DNA of 64,000 bases from a bacterium (GTDB lineage Bacteria > 4484-113 > JAGGVC01): positions 1-64,000 of the forward strand of contig JABRWB010000039.1 of assembly GCA_039961635.1 (NCBI GenBank). The letters run 5' to 3'. A program made the position numbers and the translations under genes. Each line of letters opens with the position of its first letter. Position 1 is the first letter of the stretch. This document shows, in pieces, positions 5,119 through 16,357 of this stretch. Under the pieces are notes generated by a model. That model was not told the origin of the DNA, did not search any database, and saw nothing but the letters and a program-made list of their open reading frames with translations.

Positions 5119-8100
5119 TTGGAAAAACTGAAAATCGGCGACTTCACCTTCGTCAGCGAAAGCGGAAGGACTCACACTCACGCGGTTTTGCGCGGTTTCC
5201 GCGATTCGGACCGCGCATCCGTGCTTGGGTATTTCCTGCCGGCGGATTTGCTGGGACACGACGAGGCCGCGAAGAAATTCCTGCGCGACACTCACATTTT
5301 GGCCCAGAAGGAGCATCCAGGCATCCTTCGACCGCTTGCGGCCGGAAAGCACAAGAGCAGCCTGTTCGTCGTTTATCCCGACGCCGGCGCTCCGCTTTCC
5401 ACATTCGACACTTCCGGCCGCGTCAAGCCCAAGGAAGTGCTGTCCATTGCATCCCAGATATTGCAGGCACTGCTTTTCGCGGAGTCGAAAGAAATCGCCT
5501 GCCACGGTTACATGTCGCCGGACAACATTTATTTCAACCTCGCGGACGGACGGGCGCGCTTGGCATTGTTCGGTGTCGCGCCGGCGGCGGTGCTTAAAGA
5601 CCCGGCCTGCCTTCAGCGGTTCAAGGAATACCTTCCTCCGGGGACCGCGTTCGGCGAGTTCGAATCTCAACACGATGCTACTGAAACCGAAAGTGACGCT
5701 CCCCGCGAGATTGATGTGGACAGCCTTCCGCTGAATGTCGCACACGACGGTGCGGTTTTTTCAACGGATTTTGACGCACCCGACAATTCGGAGTCGTTCG
5801 AAGTATTCAAAGAAGCGGACGCGGCACAAACCGAATCCGCCACGGAAGCACCGCGCTGGAGGCTGGGTCCGGCAACGGATTTATACGGGCTTGGACTTGT
5901 GATGCTTGAATTGCTCACCGGCGAAAAGCATTCCGATTATATCGGCCCGGAAGAATCAAATAATCCGGACATCCTTGCCGCGACACTCTCAAAACTCGAA
6001 TACGTTCCGATTCCTGTGCAGGAAATTCTGCTTAGATTGCTGACCATTGATCCAGACGCGCGCCATCGGGATTACAAGCACGCTGCGGAGGAAGTCGGTG
6101 CGCTTCTCGGCGACGACGGCGGAAAGATTTCGTTTGACAGTTTCATTTATTCCACGTTGTTCGGAGGAAGATTCAAGCTCGGCAAGGAAGTCTGCCGCGG
6201 TGCATACGCCCGAATTCTCACGGCGGAGGACACCGCCGCCGACAATGCGGCCTGCCTTGTGAAAATAATCGATCTAAGAGAGTACCCCCAGCTTGCGGAG
6301 TATTTCAGGGCTTACCTGAAGCAAATGTCCACACTGGAGGATCCGGTCCTTGTGAAAGTGCACGACGTAGGCGTGCACTATGAGCTCGGCTACATCGCGA
6401 TGGAAGACGCGGGCCAAAGTTTGGAGGATCTGCTCGTACGCAGAGGAATGCTTCCTCTTCACGATGCGGCGCACATCACGATGCAAATTGCGAAGGCGCT
6501 TGAAATTCTTTACTTCAACAATGTACCGGTTTACGGCGGACTAAAACCGACGAACATTTTTCTTTCAACGAACCTCAAAGAAGTCAAGCTGGCGGACGTA
6601 TTTTTGTCAAAGCTAATTCTGGAAAAAGGAAATCTCGCGAACACAAGCGCGGAGTATTTTTCCTACGATTGGGTCAAGTCGGGCCAGGTGACGCGCGCTT
6701 CGGACTTTTACTGCCTGGGCCTTGTCTTTTTCGAGCTTTTGGTCGGGCATCCGCCGTACAGCTTCAAAATCGAGGACGACATAATCCACGACCACTTAAA
6801 CGGGGATACTTTCCGAGTCGTCCATGAGTCAATGATTGGAGCGGAAGCGAAGCAGATCATTTACCGGCTTCTCGACCGCAATCCCGGCGCGCAGTACAAG
6901 TCGGCCGAAGAAATAAAGAATGACATCGCGGCGATGATGGGCTGGGACAAGAAAGAAAAAATAGAAATCCCTCACATCAGATTCGATTTCGCGGACGTCT
7001 GCATCGTGGGCAAGAATACGAAAGAAAAAGTAGAGGAAACGCTGTGCTATCGCCTTCCAACCAAGGGCGATCGGCCGCGCGGATTCATGTGCCTTGTTCA
7101 TGGCGTCGGCAACGAACTTGGCGAAGCTTCCGCCGCCGCCAGGCTTGCGCTGGACGTAATCAAAGAGGAATTCTTCACTCCGGGCCATGATCCGACGAAT
7201 CCCGCCGATCTTTTGGGCACCGATCCAGAAGCGTATATGTCCAAGATGTTCGCAAAAGCAAACCAGAACGTTTACCGTTTTGCTTTTCGAAAAGGCAAGC
7301 TGGGCAAAATCGGCGTGTCTACGACCTGTTGTTTCATTCAGAACAACACCGTTTTCCTGTGCAGGTCTGGGGAATCCACCGAGTACTACTTCTACAAGGG
7401 CGAATACGCGGAACTGGAATCCGTGAAAGGCGCCGTTGTGGAATCCAGGATCATCGGAAGCTCGGATACAAGCCTCGACGAAGAGCCTGCAGATATGCTT
7501 GGAATGGCGGAGCGGTTCAGAATTCATACTACAAAAAAGCGTCTGCGCGATGGCGAGCAGGTGATACTTTTGTCCAAGACGCTGCGAGACAAGTTCAGCA
7601 TTGCAGAAATTCGCGAATTCATCACGAGTCAGGAAAATCCCGCAATCAGCGTGGAGCTCATAGAGAAAAACGCCCGGCGAAGGAGAATAGAAGGCACTCT
7701 TTCTGCCGTGCTGGTCAACTTCGGCGAGATCGCCAGGTTCGTTGAAGATTCCTCGCACAAAACCACCGGCAGCCTGGCGCGAAGCTACATGGAGAGCGCC
7801 GACCAGCTTTTGCGCGACGGAAAAGTGGACGACGCAATTAACCTGTATCAGCGGGCGATCGAGCACAATCCGAATTACACCATATTGCACTACAAGCTGG
7901 GCCGCGCGTTTCTTGCGAAGGGGCTGGAGGAACGGGCGCTTGGCTCGTTCCTCTCCGCGATTTCGCTCGATCAGAGGCATATACCCGCGTCGATTGCCGC
8001 GGCGAACGTTTACATCGGGGTCAAGAAATATTCGAACGCGCGCGATATATTATCCGGCCTGGTCTCGAAAGGCGTGGAAGATCCGGACGTTTACGCCCAC

Positions 8101-8235
8101 CTTGCGCTCGTGCTGAATCGGCTTAGGCGCTCCCGCGAGGCGGCGGATTACTGCCAAAGAGCGCTGCGGCTGAAACCAGGCCATCCGCTTGCAACACAGG
8201 AAATGGTCAACGCGACGCGCGGCAAACTGTTTTAG
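5119..8235 (+). CDS. Double pseudokinase - PP2C-like - TPR fusion protein
   Basis: A 1038-residue soluble protein with four parts. Residues about 1-330 form a Ser/Thr-kinase-like fold whose catalytic loop reads HGYMSPDN instead of HRDLKPxN and whose DFG site reads LFGVAP. Residues about 348-600 form a second kinase fold with YGGLKPTN at the catalytic loop (about 471), so the catalytic Asp is Gly, and ADVFLS at the DFG position. Both keep the late landmark D-x-Y-x-L-G-L (ATDLYGLG, ASDFYCLG). Residues about 617-880 resemble a PP2C phosphatase, but the metal motif DGxGGH is VHGVGN and the GD(S) motif is SGEST. The last 150 residues are TPR repeats. The start is TTG with AAGGGAG seven bases upstream. 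Likely a non-catalytic signalling scaffold; that is inference from the missing residues. Confidence 0.85.
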   Translation: MEKLKIGDFTFVSESGRTHTHAVLRGFRDSDRASVLGYFLPADLLGHDEAAKKFLRDTHILAQKEHPGILRPLAAGKHKSSLFVVYPDAGAPLSTFDTSGRVKPKEVLSIASQILQALLFAESKEIACHGYMSPDNIYFNLADGRARLALFGVAPAAVLKDPACLQRFKEYLPPGTAFGEFESQHDATETESDAPREIDVDSLPLNVAHDGAVFSTDFDAPDNSESFEVFKEADAAQTESATEAPRWRLGPATDLYGLGLVMLELLTGEKHSDYIGPEESNNPDILAATLSKLEYVPIPVQEILLRLLTIDPDARHRDYKHAAEEVGALLGDDGGKISFDSFIYSTLFGGRFKLGKEVCRGAYARILTAEDTAADNAACLVKIIDLREYPQLAEYFRAYLKQMSTLEDPVLVKVHDVGVHYELGYIAMEDAGQSLEDLLVRRGMLPLHDAAHITMQIAKALEILYFNNVPVYGGLKPTNIFLSTNLKEVKLADVFLSKLILEKGNLANTSAEYFSYDWVKSGQVTRASDFYCLGLVFFELLVGHPPYSFKIEDDIIHDHLNGDTFRVVHESMIGAEAKQIIYRLLDRNPGAQYKSAEEIKNDIAAMMGWDKKEKIEIPHIRFDFADVCIVGKNTKEKVEETLCYRLPTKGDRPRGFMCLVHGVGNELGEASAAARLALDVIKEEFFTPGHDPTNPADLLGTDPEAYMSKMFAKANQNVYRFAFRKGKLGKIGVSTTCCFIQNNTVFLCRSGESTEYYFYKGEYAELESVKGAVVESRIIGSSDTSLDEEPADMLGMAERFRIHTTKKRLRDGEQVILLSKTLRDKFSIAEIREFITSQENPAISVELIEKNARRRRIEGTLSAVLVNFGEIARFVEDSSHKTTGSLARSYMESADQLLRDGKVDDAINLYQRAIEHNPNYTILHYKLGRAFLAKGLEERALGSFLSAISLDQRHIPASIAAANVYIGVKKYSNARDILSGLVSKGVEDPDVYAHLALVLNRLRRSREAADYCQRALRLKPGHPLATQEMVNATRGKLF

Positions 8236-8305: not shown

Positions 8306-10774
8306 ATGACGGTAGAAGAATTAATCCGAAAATCCCACTCGGACCTCGAATTCGACGAGTTCCGCCGAAAACTGGCCGGATACGCCAAGAGCGCGCGCGC
8401 GAAATCACTACTCGAATCAGCGAAACCGGTGTTCGACAAAAAGCAAATCGAATTCCTGCTCGACCGGACGCAGGAGGCGCTTGAGTTTGTAAATTCGCGG
8501 CCGAATTTTTCCGGAATTTCATTTGGATTGGTGGGTGAAGTCGAAATCGTCGTTGCAAAAGCGCGTATCGGAGACATTATCCTTGCTGACGAGCTTAAAA
8601 TCCTTCGCGATTTTCTTGAAGTGTGCGGTGAGGTGGATGAATTCGCAAAAAAAATCAAGCCGGAAAGCCAGCCGAGGCTTTGCGACCTTTTGTTTCCGTG
8701 GGAAACGCTCGCCGCGCTTAATTACCGATTCCGTCAGGTGTTCACTTCAGAGGGCGAAATCAGAGATAGCGCCTCCCCTCTTTTGAGAAAGCTGCGAGGA
8801 CAACTGCACGATCAAGAACGCGTAATAACCAAACGCGTTGACGATCTTGTGACTCAATATCAACGCCAATACGGCGATGAGGTTCATCTGTCTCTTAGAC
8901 ACAACAGGTTTGTAATCGCACTCCCGCGGGGAGCACAGAGTGCGATTTCGGGAATTGTCGTGGATTTGTCGGGCGGCGGCGCGCAAGTGCTGGTCGAACC
9001 AGAATCCTTAATCGACCTAAACAACGCTCGTGTGCGATTATTTGTCGAAGAGGAAATCGAGGTACGACGCATTCTATTGGACTTTGCTCGCGAGGTCGCG
9101 GGATACTCATATCACATCGAAACGAATCTCGAAATACTCGCGGAGCTGGACGCGGTATTTGCACGCGCTTTATATGCCCGCCAATATAATTGCACTCGCC
9201 CCGCGATTTTTGGCCCAAATTTTCATTTAAAAAACGCTCGTCATCCGCTGATCGCGGGATTCGTGCCGGAAAACGTGCGTATGGAAGCGCCCTTTCGCGG
9301 CCTCGTAGTCAGCGGTGTGAACGCGGGCGGGAAAACGGTCTTGCTGAAACTAATCGGGCTTCACACTTTGATGGCAGCCATCGGTTCGTTCATTCCCGCA
9401 GACGAGGGAAGCTCCGTGCCCGAAGTCGGCGCAGTCTTCGCGGACATTGGGGACGATCAATCAATATCGCAGCAGCTATCGACGTTCACCAGCCATCTTC
9501 ATTTTCTTAAGGGTCTTGACGAGTGGCTGTACGGCGCGGATCCGGAAACGAATCTTCCTTATTGCAACAAACCCGCGCTGATACTCATGGACGAAATCGG
9601 AGGAGGCACCGAACCCACCGAAGGTGCAGCGCTGGCATACGGAGTAATCGCTTATTTAATAAAACAGCCTGCATTGCCGGTGCTGACCACGCATTACGAC
9701 CTGCTGAAGGGCATGGCCTATCGCCATACGGAAATTAAAAATATTTCGCTTGAGTTCGATGAAAAAACCCTCAAACCGACGTTCCGAGTAATTGAAAATC
9801 AGCCCGGCAAAAGCTTTGCTTTGGATATTGCCAGCACCTTCGGCGTAAATCAACAAATAATAGGAATCGCCAAATCCGTTTTGGACACAAAGGACAAGGT
9901 GATGGCGGACGCAATCCGACAGCTCGACGAGGCGCGCGTGGATGCCGAAAAGCGCGCGGTCGAAACGCGGAAACTCGAAGAGGAAAACCGCAGACTGAAA
10001 GAAGAGCTGAAAGCTCGTAAAGAGGAATTCGTCAAGGAAAGCAAGCGATGGAAAGCCGAAATAGAAAAACAAGCTGCGGAAATGATAGACGCGGCAAAAA
10101 AGTCTATCAAATCGAGGGTGAAACGCTCAAAAACTGCGTCGGAAGTGGCGCTCGTTCAGGAAGCTCACCGAATTGCGAAGAGCGTGGAGAAAAAACTGGA
10201 CGAACAAATCGAGGAAGCATATGAAGATCTCGATATTGAACGATTCGTCGTCGCAACGGCAGGCAGACCTTTGGTCGCAGGGGATGCGGTGCTTATCGCC
10301 GGAACGCGTACTCTGGGCAAAATACTTGAAGTGGACGAAACGAAAAAACGCGCGAACGTGGAAGTGAATAAAATCCGGGTAACGGCCAAGCTTGACGAAC
10401 TCTCCCTCATCGACTTGGGCGAATTCGAGGCTGCAAAAAAGCTTAAACAAAAAGCGAAAGACCCTGGGATGGACAGAAGAATCGTCGCCGCCTCGGCCGA
10501 AGTTACGAAAGAAGTGCTTGACCTGCACGGAAAGACGACCGAAGAATCGTTCGAGGCGCTTGAAATATTTCTCGACGCCGCAGTCCGTGCGGGATTAACG
10601 GAGGTGAGAATTATGCACGGCATCGGCACCGGCGCGTTGCGCAAATTCGTCGGCGACTACCTGCGCAAGCATTCGCAGGTCAGTCACGTCAGAAGCGCGC
10701 AGCCTTCCGAAGGCGGCGTAGGGGTAACCATAGCGGTGCTTGGACGGAAACGGGAAAGACTGGGCGCCGGATAG
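8306..10774 (+). CDS. mutS2: Endonuclease MutS2
   Basis: MutS2-family ATPase acting in suppression of recombination or rescue of collided ribosomes, depending on species. At 822 residues it is full length. The clamp/lever helices precede the ATPase, whose Walker A is GVNAGGKTVLL (about residue 337) with the Walker B region LILMDEIGGGTEPTEG. A long charged coiled coil follows (about 530-610). A C-terminal Smr nuclease domain carries DLHGKTTEE and MHGIGTGALR. The MutS mismatch-recognition domain I is absent, as expected for MutS2. The start is ATG at 8306, 70 bases after the preceding gene on the same strand. Confidence 0.95.
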   Translation: MTVEELIRKSHSDLEFDEFRRKLAGYAKSARAKSLLESAKPVFDKKQIEFLLDRTQEALEFVNSRPNFSGISFGLVGEVEIVVAKARIGDIILADELKILRDFLEVCGEVDEFAKKIKPESQPRLCDLLFPWETLAALNYRFRQVFTSEGEIRDSASPLLRKLRGQLHDQERVITKRVDDLVTQYQRQYGDEVHLSLRHNRFVIALPRGAQSAISGIVVDLSGGGAQVLVEPESLIDLNNARVRLFVEEEIEVRRILLDFAREVAGYSYHIETNLEILAELDAVFARALYARQYNCTRPAIFGPNFHLKNARHPLIAGFVPENVRMEAPFRGLVVSGVNAGGKTVLLKLIGLHTLMAAIGSFIPADEGSSVPEVGAVFADIGDDQSISQQLSTFTSHLHFLKGLDEWLYGADPETNLPYCNKPALILMDEIGGGTEPTEGAALAYGVIAYLIKQPALPVLTTHYDLLKGMAYRHTEIKNISLEFDEKTLKPTFRVIENQPGKSFALDIASTFGVNQQIIGIAKSVLDTKDKVMADAIRQLDEARVDAEKRAVETRKLEEENRRLKEELKARKEEFVKESKRWKAEIEKQAAEMIDAAKKSIKSRVKRSKTASEVALVQEAHRIAKSVEKKLDEQIEEAYEDLDIERFVVATAGRPLVAGDAVLIAGTRTLGKILEVDETKKRANVEVNKIRVTAKLDELSLIDLGEFEAAKKLKQKAKDPGMDRRIVAASAEVTKEVLDLHGKTTEESFEALEIFLDAAVRAGLTEVRIMHGIGTGALRKFVGDYLRKHSQVSHVRSAQPSEGGVGVTIAVLGRKRERLGAG

Positions 10775-10986: not shown

Positions 10987-13482
10987 CTAATTGACCCAAG
11001 CGTACTTGGCGCCGTACTTGTCACGCTGGCTCTGGTAATAAGCAATCGCGAGCTTGCCGTTGGGGGCGATGGCGATCGAGCAGTACTGGCCGACTCTGTT
11101 GTTTTCCGCGCCGCCGTTGTCCACGACGTCGGCATCCCAGAAGGTTCCAACCCGCCTGGCAACAACCAAATCCGAGTTGGATACATCGTTGAATGCCACC
11201 CATGGATTGCTGTTTTCGTCGTACACAAGCGAGTTGTACTGTCCCACGAAACCCTGGCTGCGCACGGTGACCGGCGCCCAATTCGTCCCTGTCCATTCCG
11301 CGTATTTTACGTCGTAGGTGGATTCCGCGAAATAAGACAAGCCAACCGTTCCGTTCGGAGCCAGCGCCACGGAAATGACGCCATGCCCCATATTGGTTCC
11401 CGTATCCACCACGGACTCACCCCACTGGTTGCCATCCCACCAGAAGCACTCAAACTGGGAATTTCCGTCGTACGCGAACACAAGCGGATTACCGAGCGAG
11501 TCGAAACCGAGACCCGCGCTCGTGCCATCGCTCAACACCGTGGACTCCGGCCCAAGCGATTCAAGACGCTCGTATCGCACTTCATACGGCAACCCCGGCT
11601 TTCTGTGGGCGATTCCCTTTGTGCCAACGGGCGATATTTCCAGTGTGAGTGCATTGCCGAGCATATCGCCTCGCAGCAATTCGGCGATGTTCCAAAACCC
11701 TCCGTACCGCGCTCCGAGCATTATCGCCTCACCGTCGGCCTGGTATGCAAGGACGGGGGTTCCGTCATTGTCGATTTCCAGGCTCGTAAACGATCCGATT
11801 ATGCCGCCGCTGGCGACCGTTTCAATATCCCAGCCGCTTGCATCTTTGGTGGCGTAGACGACCTCGAAGTTCGAAGAATCAATCTTAGCCTGATATGCAA
11901 CAGCAGGTGTACCGTCGGGCAAAAACTCAAGACTGGTAAAGGAACCAAGATTCCGTGTACCGCCGTATTCGATGAATTCGTACGACCAGGAACCGGGCTT
12001 GGGCTTTACGACATAGCCGAAAGGCATTTCGGCGAGTCCGTAGTCGTTCACGACCACGAGATTCCCAAAGTAGGTTCCCGGCACACCCAACTCGACCGTC
12101 GCGGTTGGTTCCCCGCTGATATATTGGTTGGGCGTTGCTCCGCCTCCGAAATCCCAACGGTAAACAAGCGTCGGACTTCCCGTTGCATGCGCCGAAAACG
12201 TCACCTGCTCCCTCGTAACACCTTCGTTGGGGGAAACATCTTGAATAGTCGGAGGAATGGCTACGGTGGAAATCGTTGTTTCCAGCGTGTCGCTGCCAAG
12301 GTCGTTGGTGACGGTTAGCCTTATCGGATACTCGCCGGGCAGCATCGCCAAAGTCACCAAGGGCGTCTCGCTTGATGAAAACCGCGGCGTAGCAGCATCG
12401 CCGAAATCCCATGCGTAGGTCAGCGGGGCGGTACCGGAAACAACCGCGTGGAAAGCAATTTTTTCTCCCACATTGCCGCCGGGCGGCGAAATAGAAATTA
12501 CACGCGGCGCAGATGGCCCGACAGACAGCTCGAACGGGAACGATGTTGCGCCATATTCGTTTGAAACCGAAACTATGCACTGATAAATGCCGCTATCCCC
12601 GAGAACCACGATCGGTTCGGCGACGAACGCTCCATTGGGATATGCACCACCGCCGAATTCCCATACGTAAGAATACGGCCTGGGACCAGCCGCTCTAACC
12701 TGAAATGTAACTGACTGCCCTTGATCACCTTCCAAAGGCGTCACTCCGAAAACCAAAGGTGGAATTTCCAGAGCAAAAAAATCGCTGGGCTCTCCTTCTT
12801 TTCCTCCCTCGTCCACAGGCGTCACGCGAATGCTGTCAAGAATCAATTCGGGAAACGGAACTTCAAACACCTTTGGCCAACCCGGAGTGCCGCTCAATAC
12901 CGGCGTTTCCAACATTTCGAAAATTGCGCCTTCGGGAATCAAAGATGTTTCCAGCAAGTAATGGTCAACCGAGTTGCCCCAACCGTCCACTATTCCTTGT
13001 ATGTCGCCAATTCCAACCTCACCGTCTCCGTCATAATCCAAAAACGCTTCCGCGGCGTCGTTGCCCAGCCCGTCGCCGGGTATCCCGCCGAAATATACGG
13101 CCAGCGGCGTAATGTCGCTCACACCCACTTCGCCACCCTGGTCAAAATCGCCCGGATTTACGTAGCTCCAGCGAATGATTTCCGCATCGGCGTCGATCGA
13201 TAGGTCAGTCACCTTGCCGATCGAGCCGGGAGGAACCGCCGATACTTTTTTATCCATGTCACCGAGGCGTTTCATCAACTCCTCGTGGAGCATTTTGTAA
13301 ACCTGTGGATCGACCGCAATCTGAACCGTGGAAGGCGCGACCGCACTTTGGGCATAGGTAGGTGGACTTCCCTTGCCTGCTCCCCTGCCGCAAGATGCGA
13401 AAATGCACAAAAAAATGATTCCTGACAAATACAATGCGTACACAGCCAAGCCGGTACGCCGGTTAAAACTCGCACCCCTCAT
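10987..13482 (-). CDS. PKD-repeat, dockerin-like lipoprotein with propeller repeats
   Basis: An exported lipoprotein of 831 residues. The signal sequence ends in the lipobox IFASC. A paired dockerin-like/EF-hand segment at about 105-170 carries two calcium-loop motifs (NPGDFDQGGEVGVSDI and DYDGDGEVGIGDI). At least three PKD domains follow at about 245-510, each with an (Y)xWDFG or YVWEFGGG core. The C-terminal third has repeats such as GSFTSLEIDNDGTPVLAYQ, like those of the gene at the left edge. The chosen start is ATG at 13482, with AAGGAGG eight bases upstream; an in-frame GTG at 13491 overlaps that site. Probably surface-anchored and involved in binding or assembly; no enzymatic motif is visible. 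Confidence 0.88.
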   Translation of the reverse strand: MRGASFNRRTGLAVYALYLSGIIFLCIFASCGRGAGKGSPPTYAQSAVAPSTVQIAVDPQVYKMLHEELMKRLGDMDKKVSAVPPGSIGKVTDLSIDADAEIIRWSYVNPGDFDQGGEVGVSDITPLAVYFGGIPGDGLGNDAAEAFLDYDGDGEVGIGDIQGIVDGWGNSVDHYLLETSLIPEGAIFEMLETPVLSGTPGWPKVFEVPFPELILDSIRVTPVDEGGKEGEPSDFFALEIPPLVFGVTPLEGDQGQSVTFQVRAAGPRPYSYVWEFGGGAYPNGAFVAEPIVVLGDSGIYQCIVSVSNEYGATSFPFELSVGPSAPRVISISPPGGNVGEKIAFHAVVSGTAPLTYAWDFGDAATPRFSSSETPLVTLAMLPGEYPIRLTVTNDLGSDTLETTISTVAIPPTIQDVSPNEGVTREQVTFSAHATGSPTLVYRWDFGGGATPNQYISGEPTATVELGVPGTYFGNLVVVNDYGLAEMPFGYVVKPKPGSWSYEFIEYGGTRNLGSFTSLEFLPDGTPAVAYQAKIDSSNFEVVYATKDASGWDIETVASGGIIGSFTSLEIDNDGTPVLAYQADGEAIMLGARYGGFWNIAELLRGDMLGNALTLEISPVGTKGIAHRKPGLPYEVRYERLESLGPESTVLSDGTSAGLGFDSLGNPLVFAYDGNSQFECFWWDGNQWGESVVDTGTNMGHGVISVALAPNGTVGLSYFAESTYDVKYAEWTGTNWAPVTVRSQGFVGQYNSLVYDENSNPWVAFNDVSNSDLVVARRVGTFWDADVVDNGGAENNRVGQYCSIAIAPNGKLAIAYYQSQRDKYGAKYAWVN

Positions 13483-13607
13483 GTACTGCACCTCCTTAGT
13501 CTACCGGGATGGATGCGAAATGGATGGACACGTAAAGGATAACACAAATCCGACCCAAACAATAGAGCAACCCAACGTTCGCATCATAATTTCCGAAGGT
13601 AATTCAT

Positions 13608-14507
13608 TCAATCGAACCGCGTTCTCAGCCACGCGCTCACCTGGTCGAGGATGAAGCTCGCCGCCAGGATGATCAGGAAGGCGGTCGAGGCCTCGCTGAA
13701 CCTGAACTGCTTGATGTACTGGTCGAGCATGAACCCGATGCCGCCCGCGCCCACGATTCCGATGATCATGCTCATCCGGATGTTCATATCCCACCTGTAA
13801 ATGGAAAGCGTGACCAGACGGGGCAGCACCTGCGGCAGCACGCCGTACCAGACGACCTGCACCGGGTGGGCGCCCACGGCTTCGACGGCTTCAACCTGGC
13901 CCTTGTCTATGTTCTCGATGGCTTCGCTGAAAAGCTGGCCGAGAGCGCCGACCGAGTGCAGGGCAAGCGCCAGCACTCCGGCGAACGGCCCCACGCCGAC
14001 GACGAGAACGAAAAGCAATGCCAGGAGTATCGGCGGAAAAGCACGGCTGACGCTGAAAAGGAACCGGACGGCGATGTAGACGGTGCGGGCGGCGGGCGAG
14101 CCCCGCATCAGGTTGTTGGCCCCCAGGAACGCCATCGGAAAGCACAGGAACAGCGCCAGGATGGTTCCGGCAAGCGAGATTTCGACGGTCAGCCACATGT
14201 CGGCGGCGAGCTTGCGCAGAAGCTCCGGCTCGAAACTGGGGCGGGCGATTTTGGCCAGCGCATTTCGCGTCATTTCGCTCATCCCCCAGACCTTCACGAA
14301 CTCGGATTTGCCGGTGGCGGGGTCGACGCGGGTTTCGGTGTGCTTAAAAAGATCCAGACTGAAATCAGTATCGATAAAGCTTTTTACGCAGATTGCGAGG
14401 CCGATCAGTACGAGAAAAGCGGCAAGCGATGCGCGGGCTGCGGCGTGCGGGCTGCGGGGAGTCCGGGAGGCGGATTCGGGCTTCGGATTGTCGGAAGGCG
14501 GCTGCAT
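13608..14507 (-). CDS. phnE: Phosphonate-type ABC transporter permease
   Basis: Integral membrane permease of a PhnCDE-type importer, 299 residues with about six membrane segments. It contains the cytoplasmic EAA-type loop (IENIDKGQVEAVEAVGAHPVQVVWYGVLPQVLP) that contacts the ATPase, and the family-typical MIIGIVGAGGIGF segment. Its start is directly adjacent to the phnC stop with no gap, so translation is coupled. A Pro/Ser-rich N-terminal tail of about 25 residues precedes the first helix. No C-P lyase or phosphonatase gene lies nearby, so the ligand (phosphonate, phosphite, phosphate or other) cannot be named from the window. Confidence 0.92.
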   Translation of the reverse strand: MQPPSDNPKPESASRTPRSPHAAARASLAAFLVLIGLAICVKSFIDTDFSLDLFKHTETRVDPATGKSEFVKVWGMSEMTRNALAKIARPSFEPELLRKLAADMWLTVEISLAGTILALFLCFPMAFLGANNLMRGSPAARTVYIAVRFLFSVSRAFPPILLALLFVLVVGVGPFAGVLALALHSVGALGQLFSEAIENIDKGQVEAVEAVGAHPVQVVWYGVLPQVLPRLVTLSIYRWDMNIRMSMIIGIVGAGGIGFMLDQYIKQFRFSEASTAFLIILAASFILDQVSAWLRTRFD

Positions 14508-15296
14508 CTAGTCCGAGTATTCCTCCCCGTAAATACGCTTCAGGACAGACATTTCGAGGCCAGAAACCGGGCCGTCGTAGACGACCAGGCCGGCGCGGAC
14601 GCCGATGACGCGCTCCGCCGCAAGCCGCACCAGATCCACCGCGTGCAGGTTGAGCAGCACGGTGCGGCCGTCCTCGCGGCAGATCTGCACAAGGTGCGCC
14701 AGCACCGAGCGGGCGATGACCGGATCGAGGTTGGACACCGGCTCGTCGGCCAGGATAAGCGGCGGATCCTGCACCAGCGCTCTTGCAATAGCCACTCTTT
14801 GCATTTGTCCGCCCGAAAGCTGGCTTGCGGGTTTCCACGCTTCGTTCGCCAGTCCAACCCTATCCAATGCCGCCAGCGCTTTGTCCGTTTCGTCGGCGGT
14901 GAACCGGAAAAAAAGCGATGGCGCAATCGGCTTGTATCCGAGCCGTCCGACGAGCGCATTTTGGAGCACCGTCAGGCGCGGGATCAGGTTGAAACTCTGG
15001 AACACCATCCCGACGCGCCTCCGGATAGCGCGTCCGCGGCTTCCCTTGTTGGATACGGCCTCGCCCAGCGTCTCGACCGAGCCGGACGTTGGCGCGATCA
15101 ACCCGTTGATGCACCGCAGGAGCGTGGACTTGCCGGCGCCGGAAGGGCCGATGACCGCGGCGATCTCGCCCTGCGGGACGGCGAAGCTAACTCCGCGCAG
15201 GGCCTCGGTCCCGTCGGGGAACCGCTTGGCGACGTCACGGCACAGAATTGCAGGCCCGGGCATCGTGCGAGATGGTAGCACGGGTTCAGAAGTCAT
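14508..15296 (-). CDS. phnC: Phosphonate-type ABC transporter ATPase
   Basis: ATP-binding subunit of the same importer. Walker A is GPSGAGKST, the signature is LSGGQMQRVAIARAL, and Walker B is LILADEPVSNLD; a family-typical NLIPRLTVLQNALVGRLG Q-loop segment is present. The length is 262 residues from ATG 15296. An internal ATG at 15263 (MPGPAIL) would start closer to where PhnC proteins normally begin and may be the real start; neither has a good ribosome binding site. Gene order on the minus strand is phnD, phnC, phnE. Confidence 0.93.
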   Translation of the reverse strand: MTSEPVLPSRTMPGPAILCRDVAKRFPDGTEALRGVSFAVPQGEIAAVIGPSGAGKSTLLRCINGLIAPTSGSVETLGEAVSNKGSRGRAIRRRVGMVFQSFNLIPRLTVLQNALVGRLGYKPIAPSLFFRFTADETDKALAALDRVGLANEAWKPASQLSGGQMQRVAIARALVQDPPLILADEPVSNLDPVIARSVLAHLVQICREDGRTVLLNLHAVDLVRLAAERVIGVRAGLVVYDGPVSGLEMSVLKRIYGEEYSD

Positions 15297-15340
15297 ATAG
15301 CAACGTACTGGCTTATAGCAGACCGGCCAAATTAGGCAAA

Positions 15341-16333
15341 CTACTTCCCCTTCCCCAGCTGCGCCTCGACGTCCAGGTCAAGCTCCGCCGCCATCTTGCG
15401 TACGACATCGTAGTCTGAATCCGAAGCCGGAAGCAGATCCTCGATTTCGTAAATATCGAAGATGATCTTTTTGCCTTCGCCGGAGTGCATCACCTCGACG
15501 AGCGCGCCGGTCAGCTTCTTCGCCCATTCGTCCGAGAGATACGTCGGCCCCGAAAGCACTACCGCGTCGCCGGGAATCGGGTCGGTCTTGGCTATGACGC
15601 GGGTTTCCTCCATCACCTTCGGGTTGATTTCCTTCGCGCGCTCGCGCGCGTCCACGTAGCATGCGCCGACGTCCACACTGCCCTGCAGTACGGAGATAAC
15701 CACGCTGTCGTGGCTGCCGGTGGCAACCGAATCGCCGAGGTCCTTGTCGGGGTCTATTCCCGCCGCCTTCAGCATCGCCCGCGGGTACAGGTAGCCGGAG
15801 GTCGAAGTCGGGTCAACCCATGCGAACCGCTTGCCCCGGCAGTCGGCGAGCGTCTGAATCGGGCTGTCGCTGCGCACGATGAGCTGGCCGTAGTAGTACG
15901 GCGTCCCCTTGCGCACGGCCTTGAGCGCGACGCGGGCTTGGTGGCGTTGGTTGGCGTAAATGTAAGCCAGCGGGGGAAGCCATCCCACCAGGCAGTCGCC
16001 GGTGCCGAGAGCTTCGACCGCGGCGACGTAGTGCGGGAGGACGATGGACTCGACGGGAATGCCCAGCTTCGCGGAAAGCAGCGAGTCGAGCTTTTTCGTT
16101 CCTTCGATTATCGTGTCGGCCTCGTTCGAGGGCACGAACGCCATCTTGATTTTCACGGGTTCGGGCGGAGTGAGCGGAACGGGATGCGCGTCTGAAAGCT
16201 TGCCGGAAGTTTCGGATTGCGCGCCGGGCCCGCCCTGCCCGTCCGAATCGCCGCCGCCGCTCGGGCAGCCGGTAAAAAGCAAAGTAAAAACTACAGCGGC
16301 GAACAGCGCCCAAGCCGAACGAAATGAAGCCAT
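15341..16333 (-). CDS. phnD: Phosphate/phosphonate-type periplasmic-binding lipoprotein
   Basis: Substrate-binding component of the PhnCDE-type importer, 330 residues, anchored by the lipobox LFTGC. After a Gly/Ser/Asp-rich linker the PhnD fold begins with IKMAFVPSNEAD, continues with the ligand-pocket segment SPIQTLADCRGKRFAWVDPTSTSGYLYPRAM, and ends with the VISVLQGSVDVGACYVDA segment. The chosen start is ATG at 16333 with GGAGG five bases upstream; an in-frame TTG at 16345 overlaps that site. A TATAAT lies at 16358-16363 on the same strand. The gene is divergent from the antiporter at 16455. Confidence 0.92.
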   Translation of the reverse strand: MASFRSAWALFAAVVFTLLFTGCPSGGGDSDGQGGPGAQSETSGKLSDAHPVPLTPPEPVKIKMAFVPSNEADTIIEGTKKLDSLLSAKLGIPVESIVLPHYVAAVEALGTGDCLVGWLPPLAYIYANQRHQARVALKAVRKGTPYYYGQLIVRSDSPIQTLADCRGKRFAWVDPTSTSGYLYPRAMLKAAGIDPDKDLGDSVATGSHDSVVISVLQGSVDVGACYVDARERAKEINPKVMEETRVIAKTDPIPGDAVVLSGPTYLSDEWAKKLTGALVEVMHSGEGKKIIFDIYEIEDLLPASDSDYDVVRKMAAELDLDVEAQLGKGK

Positions 16334-16357
16334 CGAAGCCTCCAAAAAACCGCTCCC

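Follow-up and report, generated by a model that had tools for sequence, protein, structure and literature searches.

Gene and domain layout

The window (the whole 64,000-nucleotide stretch of DNA that was analysed) carries at positions 5119 to 8235 (+) a single open reading frame of 1,038 codons, which starts with TTG at 5119, has the purine-rich sequence AAGGGAG just 5' of the TTG, and runs to a stop at 8235. Since the start agrees with that of the orthologue in genome G001, which begins MEKLKLGEY at the equivalent place, the frame, strand and coordinates assigned in an earlier note on this DNA are right. The gene is complete and is flanked by alaS on the opposite strand and by mutS2 on the same strand (ATG at 8306), both names being given from a reading of the sequences. 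Based on Pfam and the orthologues, its product is arranged as PK1-PK2-PP2C-like-TPR, where PK1 and PK2 are kinase-like domains. No membrane segment was evident in the 1,038-residue protein, and it is predicted to be cytoplasmic. By eye only, we also noted two loci on the minus strand of the window: a large PKD-repeat protein, probably secreted, with a dockerin-like calcium motif (10987 to 13491), and a permease, ATPase and binding protein that resemble a phosphonate/phosphite ABC transporter (phnE/phnC/phnD-like; 13608 to 16345).

PK1 comprises residues 1 to 335 (5119 to 6123, +). It matched Pfam weakly (22 bits) and the active Ser/Thr kinases of the host phylum at 99.4% in hhalign (E = 3e-21), and its AlphaFold2 model has strands and helices in kinase-type order. 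Between its activation-segment region and helix F lies an acidic insert (residues 179 to 245; 5653 to 5853, +) that is predicted to be disordered (pLDDT below 50); in the alignment, this insert is present in G000 and G001, present in part in G002, and absent from most other orthologues. PK2 (residues 336 to 612; 6124 to 6954, +) was found by Pfam PF00069 at residues 353 to 593 (E = 3.5e-31 for the whole protein) and matched the active kinases of the phylum at 99.9% in hhalign, while the best Foldseek match of the kinase part was PknB (E = 8e-11). By sequence and model, both PK1 and PK2 have a protein kinase fold of the pseudokinase kind.

The PP2C-like domain follows at residues 613 to 876 (6955 to 7746, +). 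The Pfam search missed this segment; the NF033484 model (Stp1/IreP PP2C) matched residues 661 to 855 (E = 9e-9), hhalign matched residues 654 to 869 to the active PP2Cs of the phylum at 94% (E = 9e-8), and the sequence profile picked PP2C chains in the PDB, including Stp1 structures (E = 9e-8). AlphaFold2 modelled the domain alone with a pTM of 0.81 and a pLDDT of 82, and among the PDB matches listed for this model, which included tPphA (best, E = 4e-12), Stp1, PstP and PppA, almost all were PP2C-family phosphatases. The beta-sandwich and the sequence profile together identify a PP2C/PPM fold. The TPR repeats (residues 887 to 1021; 7777 to 8181, +) were matched by several Pfam TPR models, marking this as a TPR protein, and were predicted as a helical repeat with pLDDT mostly between 76 and 92. 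The AlphaFold2 model of the whole protein, built with seven sequences, is usable domain by domain (mean pLDDT, 71), and its packing of the domains is not reliable (pTM, 0.35). Profile searches, motif alignment and structure models thus support the earlier proposal that two pseudokinases, a pseudophosphatase and TPRs are joined in one protein.

Catalytic residues of the enzyme-fold domains

We tabulated catalytic residues from a MAFFT alignment with the intact kinases and PP2Cs of the host phylum. The PK1 equivalent of HRDxxxxN is HGYMSPDN (residues 129 to 136; 5503 to 5526, +), and that of DFG is LFGVAP (residues 150 to 155; 5566 to 5583, +), in which the Asp is lost. Both substitutions are as the earlier note had described them, and the beta3 Lys is lost as well. 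Every copy covering these positions is without the Lys, the HRD Asp and the DFG Asp, and with all three missing PK1 does not qualify as an active Hanks-type Ser/Thr kinase.

The catalytic loop of PK2, YGGLKPTN (residues 472 to 479; 6532 to 6555, +), indeed misses the HRD Asp, which is Gly or Ala in 7/7 orthologues, and the alphaC Glu is likewise Tyr or Arg in all seven (Y399 here; 6313 to 6315, +). With these two residues missing, PK2 does not qualify as an active Hanks-type kinase either; in addition, its glycine loop is eroded. ADVFLS had been taken as a lost DFG, but the Asp remains in KLADVF (D493; 6595 to 6597, +), which reads D-V-F here, and only the F and G have changed. D493, the beta3 Lys (K382; 6262 to 6264, +) and N479 in the catalytic loop are kept in 7/7 orthologues. 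Consequently, the claim that each domain had lost its catalytic residues stands for PK1 and the PP2C-like domain and is overstated for PK2. Since the Lys, Asn and DFG Asp are kept, PK2 may retain nucleotide binding, and the combination of invariant K382, N479 and D493 with an HRD Asp that is always replaced is, at the level of the alignment, what would be expected of a domain that binds but does not catalyse. The earlier suggestion that the protein might sense nucleotides or phosphorylation state is in keeping with this. A kinase fold without the HRD Asp could still carry out weak or atypical chemistry.

In the PP2C-like domain, HGVGN (residues 661 to 665; 7099 to 7113, +) occupies the DGMGG position, GES (residues 751 to 753; 7369 to 7377, +) the GDS position, SKT (residues 819 to 821; 7573 to 7581, +) the SDG position, and GT the DN position. 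The loss of the Asp at VHGVGN, suggested previously, was therefore borne out and extends to the GDSR, SDG and DN aspartates. Across the copies of both phyla in which the domain was found (see below), the DGMGGH Asp and the DN Asp are lost in 11/11, the SDG Asp in 10/11 (G003 keeps it) and the GDSR Asp in 10/11. By alignment, the M2-type aspartates are missing, and without the metal-binding aspartates of DGxGGH, SDG and DN the domain does not qualify as an active PP2C. It has instead an RxP...RG motif that is common to both phyla, with R645, P647, R654 and G655 invariant in the nine sequences of alignment A10. The earlier note had held that homologues keeping HRD/DFG or the PP2C aspartates would speak against inactivation; no homologue has the HRD Asp at the PK1 or PK2 position and none has the DGxGGH or DN Asp, although one copy in 11 has an Asp at SDG and one in 11 at GDSR. 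As judged from these alignments, every enzyme-fold domain of the protein lacks residues that ordinary phosphotransfer or metal-dependent dephosphorylation requires, and the losses are old and were inherited.

Orthologues, separate enzymes and a second phylum

Among the genomes examined, the host phylum has 10 members, all of one class. Full-length orthologues with the same residue losses occur in 7/10 genomes belonging to three families, the G008 copy being cut at a contig end; identity is 63% in G001 and 37 to 41% over the best segments in the other orthologues. The mean pairwise identity was 0.51 for PK2, 0.49 for the PP2C-like domain and 0.41 for PK1, and ~20% of the columns in PK2 and the PP2C-like domain were invariant. 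Because these two domains are conserved more than PK1, they are under constraint. The protein is absent from the three genomes of family f4, though a kinase and a PP2C are present there.

An ordinary kinase above the Pfam cut-off was found in 10/10 genomes of the host phylum, and a separate PP2C was found in nine, including the window's own; in G001, the search returned the fused PP2C-like domain and no separate PP2C. In the separate enzymes that were read, the HRD/DFG or DGMGGH/GDSR/SDG/DN motifs are intact, so the cells possess genuine enzymes that could be regulated. Given that family f4 has the pair without the protein, the kinase/PP2C pair does not require the fusion protein. The gene neighbourhood is not conserved between families or phyla, and only family f2 has a common downstream neighbour, which encodes a protein of 266 to 286 aa. 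As a result, no pathway can be assigned, and we dropped an operon or guilt-by-association reading. A role in defence was also rejected: the best PADLOC matches were to the anti-phage kinases PD-T4-6 and MADS6, the strong matches cover only the kinase domain (about residues 346 to 618), and the gene, lying between alaS and mutS2, is not in a defence locus.

The PP2C-like profile was run against 385 genomes, and reading of the long frames that matched led to a second small phylum in which 4/4 genomes encode the domains in the same order, preceded by a third kinase-like domain (L134:5180-9298, +; L135:6264-10055, -; L136:3-3860, -; and L140). As the second phylum has this architecture too, the protein belongs to a family and is not an isolated case. 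By the motif table, the PP2C-like domain is equally dead there. The extra front domain, PKa, keeps the Lys and the Asp of DWY, and in two of the four genomes it keeps the HLD aspartate; these two front domains may be active kinases. No separate Stp1-type PP2C was found in G118, G254, G381 or G385, whose sole NF033484 match is the dead fused domain. The other sampled phyla gave no full-length match, and since the larger scans scored only a few candidates from each genome, absence outside the two phyla is weak evidence. A scan of genome contigs returned only an unrelated Prochloron match, and a plasmid scan returned kinase-only matches. A 1778-aa tandem-kinase protein in G127, encoded by a 1,778-codon frame (L145), was also considered as a relative. 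It has at least two tandem kinase domains and then helical repeats; we rejected it, since HRD and DFG are retained in these kinase domains and no PP2C was seen in the part read.

In a PP2C tree, the inactive copies of both phyla grouped together, apart from 24 intact ones, with support of 96/97, and this grouping persisted when the motif columns were removed (98/98). The shared RxP...RG motif points the same way. A single origin of the inactive PP2C-like domain of both phyla is thus likely rather than proven, since both inactive sets sit on long branches. In the kinase-domain tree, each position formed its own clade, and no clear match of PK1 and PK2 to particular domains of the second phylum emerged. 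The domain arrays of the two phyla may have been inherited whole or built twice.

Proposed role and precedents

Given that relatives in two phyla keep the design without the same key residues, the protein is probably an old non-catalytic signalling scaffold. Specifically, we lean toward a scaffold or allosteric adaptor of Ser/Thr phospho-signalling that is cytoplasmic and non-catalytic and may be gated by nucleotide via PK2, as an account that is somewhat more probable than not to be correct. PK2 would bind nucleotide and change conformation in response, partners would dock on PK1 and the PP2C-like domain, and the TPRs would hold client proteins, so that the protein would join clients with the Ser/Thr kinase and PP2C that the cell encodes separately with intact motifs; alternatively, it might keep that kinase or PP2C in an on or off state. 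Loss of the same residues in seven orthologues from three families and in four homologues of the second phylum supports a scaffold, while the unconserved neighbours, the f4 pair without the protein, and G001, where no separate PP2C was found, count against it. More tentatively, and with the odds against it, one could picture an old bacterial "dead signalosome," in which inactive kinase and phosphatase copies plus TPRs would form a hub gated by nucleotide, on which the real kinase and the real phosphatase would dock together with clients. The dead PP2C of both phyla would then stem from one event and would be the bacterial equivalent of TAB1 and PHLPP.

We consider it unlikely that the protein is instead a structural assembly protein of an unrelated machine, its kinase and PP2C folds serving only as binding surfaces with no link to Ser/Thr phospho-signalling. 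Unconserved neighbours would suit such a role, as would family f4, which keeps its kinase and PP2C without the protein, and EssB in type VII secretion sets a precedent (PMC12599244); nevertheless, phospho-signalling fits better with the joining of kinase and phosphatase folds and with the retained nucleotide-site residues of PK2. Less likely still is that PK2 is alive, binding ATP-Mg and carrying out an atypical or slow phosphotransfer, AMPylation or another ATP-dependent reaction regulated by the other domains. The invariance of K382, N479 and D493 would be explained in this way, PKa of the second phylum keeps its Lys and DWY Asp and in two cases HLD, and SelO and SidJ are bacterial pseudokinases without the canonical catalytic motif that have new activities (PMC12599244). 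The HRD Asp and alphaC Glu are nonetheless replaced in every orthologue, and erosion extends to the glycine loop and to the G of DFG.

The retained PP2C fold and its own conserved RxP...RG motif could also be those of a phosphoprotein reader, the substrate groove of the PP2C-like domain holding phosphorylated clients without hydrolysis (a substrate trap), but we regard this as very unlikely, since PP2C holds phosphate through the metal site that is lost here. A decaying gene or annotation artefact would account for the many lost enzyme motifs, but it is refuted, and almost certainly wrong, given the long open frames in all copies of two phyla, the strongly conserved columns and the ribosome-binding site; substitution of the same positions in orthologues with long open frames is neither chance nor pseudogene decay.

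A review of bacterial Ser/Thr pseudokinases (ActPs1-3, GLW, CP1, DYD, DLHK, MviN and EssB/YukC) delimits families by the motifs that they have lost and lists EssB and MviN as scaffolds (PMC12599244). The window protein resembles them in its kinase fold and substituted catalytic motifs, and a scaffold function has been proposed or shown for some of them; compared by motif table only, the PK2 pattern, in which only the HRD Asp and alphaC Glu are lost, is unlike most entries in Table 1 of that review, the text of which does not mention TPR, tetratricopeptide, PP2C or tandem. TAB1, a partner of the kinase TAK1, and PHLPP2 are eukaryotic PP2C-family pseudophosphatases that keep one metal site, M2 (PMC12002173). 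They share with the window protein a PP2C fold with an incomplete metal site, whereas the latter is bacterial, has the DGxGGH, SDG and DN aspartates replaced, and is fused to pseudokinases and TPRs. BSK3, a plant brassinosteroid-signalling scaffold whose full function may need ATP binding (PMC6336344), likewise has a kinase-like domain followed by TPRs, by analogy only; unlike the window protein, it is eukaryotic and membrane anchored, with one kinase-like domain and no PP2C. TAB1, PHLPP2, BSK3, MviN and EssB are precedents of function, by analogy, and not of family membership.

Bacterial PP2Cs joined to Pkinase or TPR are recorded as phosphatases with possible dual activity (PMC12088040). These proteins share part of the present arrangement (kinase plus PP2C or PP2C plus TPR), but none of them is described as combining a dead PP2C with TPRs and two or three pseudokinases. 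The earlier statement that no bacterial protein of such architecture had been described therefore held in the literature searched, mostly without subscription papers, with partial combinations known; that literature contained no bacterial PP2C pseudophosphatase. Relative to PknB/PstP/Stp1 pairs, the PK2 fold is nearest PknB and the PP2C-like domain nearest tPphA, PstP and Stp1, but the catalytic residues are absent here. Bacterial pseudokinases have hardly been explored, and this conserved protein, with both folds dead and nucleotide-site residues kept in PK2, lets one ask whether bacteria organise Ser/Thr phosphorylation with dead kinase/phosphatase hubs, like eukaryotic TAB1 and BSK. If the protein is a scaffold, PK2 alone should bind ATP, the PP2C-like domain should have no metal site, and the protein should bind the cell's own kinase or PP2C.

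The separate enzymes of the host phylum resemble actinobacterial clusters in which a vWA protein and an active PP2C accompany an active kinase that bears a zinc ribbon or TM helices (PMC7159879). The active kinase of the host phylum (L001, minus-strand frame 1060-2307; L083:7865-9001) has a C-terminal zinc ribbon and one membrane helix. The active PP2Cs (L089:3-1655, L088:7654-9300, L087:4004-5665 and L086:6406-7875) have an N-terminal extension of ~230 residues that contains an acidic-Thr motif, [DE]DxTDP[LF], which hardly varies and may be a site of phosphorylation. To the eye this extension looked kinase-like, and hhalign gave 2%; we rejected a pseudokinase fused to the phylum's active PP2C as the origin of the protein. 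The vWA proteins (L083:14503-15909 and L090:1376-4063) have N-terminal repeated DATIVS/ETIIG-like Thr motifs, possible kinase substrates, and the one in L090 has two FHA domains and adjoins an active PP2C. The family f2 orthologues (L078, L079, L080 and L081) have a conserved C-terminal RLxDDxxTxI-like tail, which is absent from the window protein and is similar to the acidic-Thr motifs found in the PP2C extension and in the vWA proteins.
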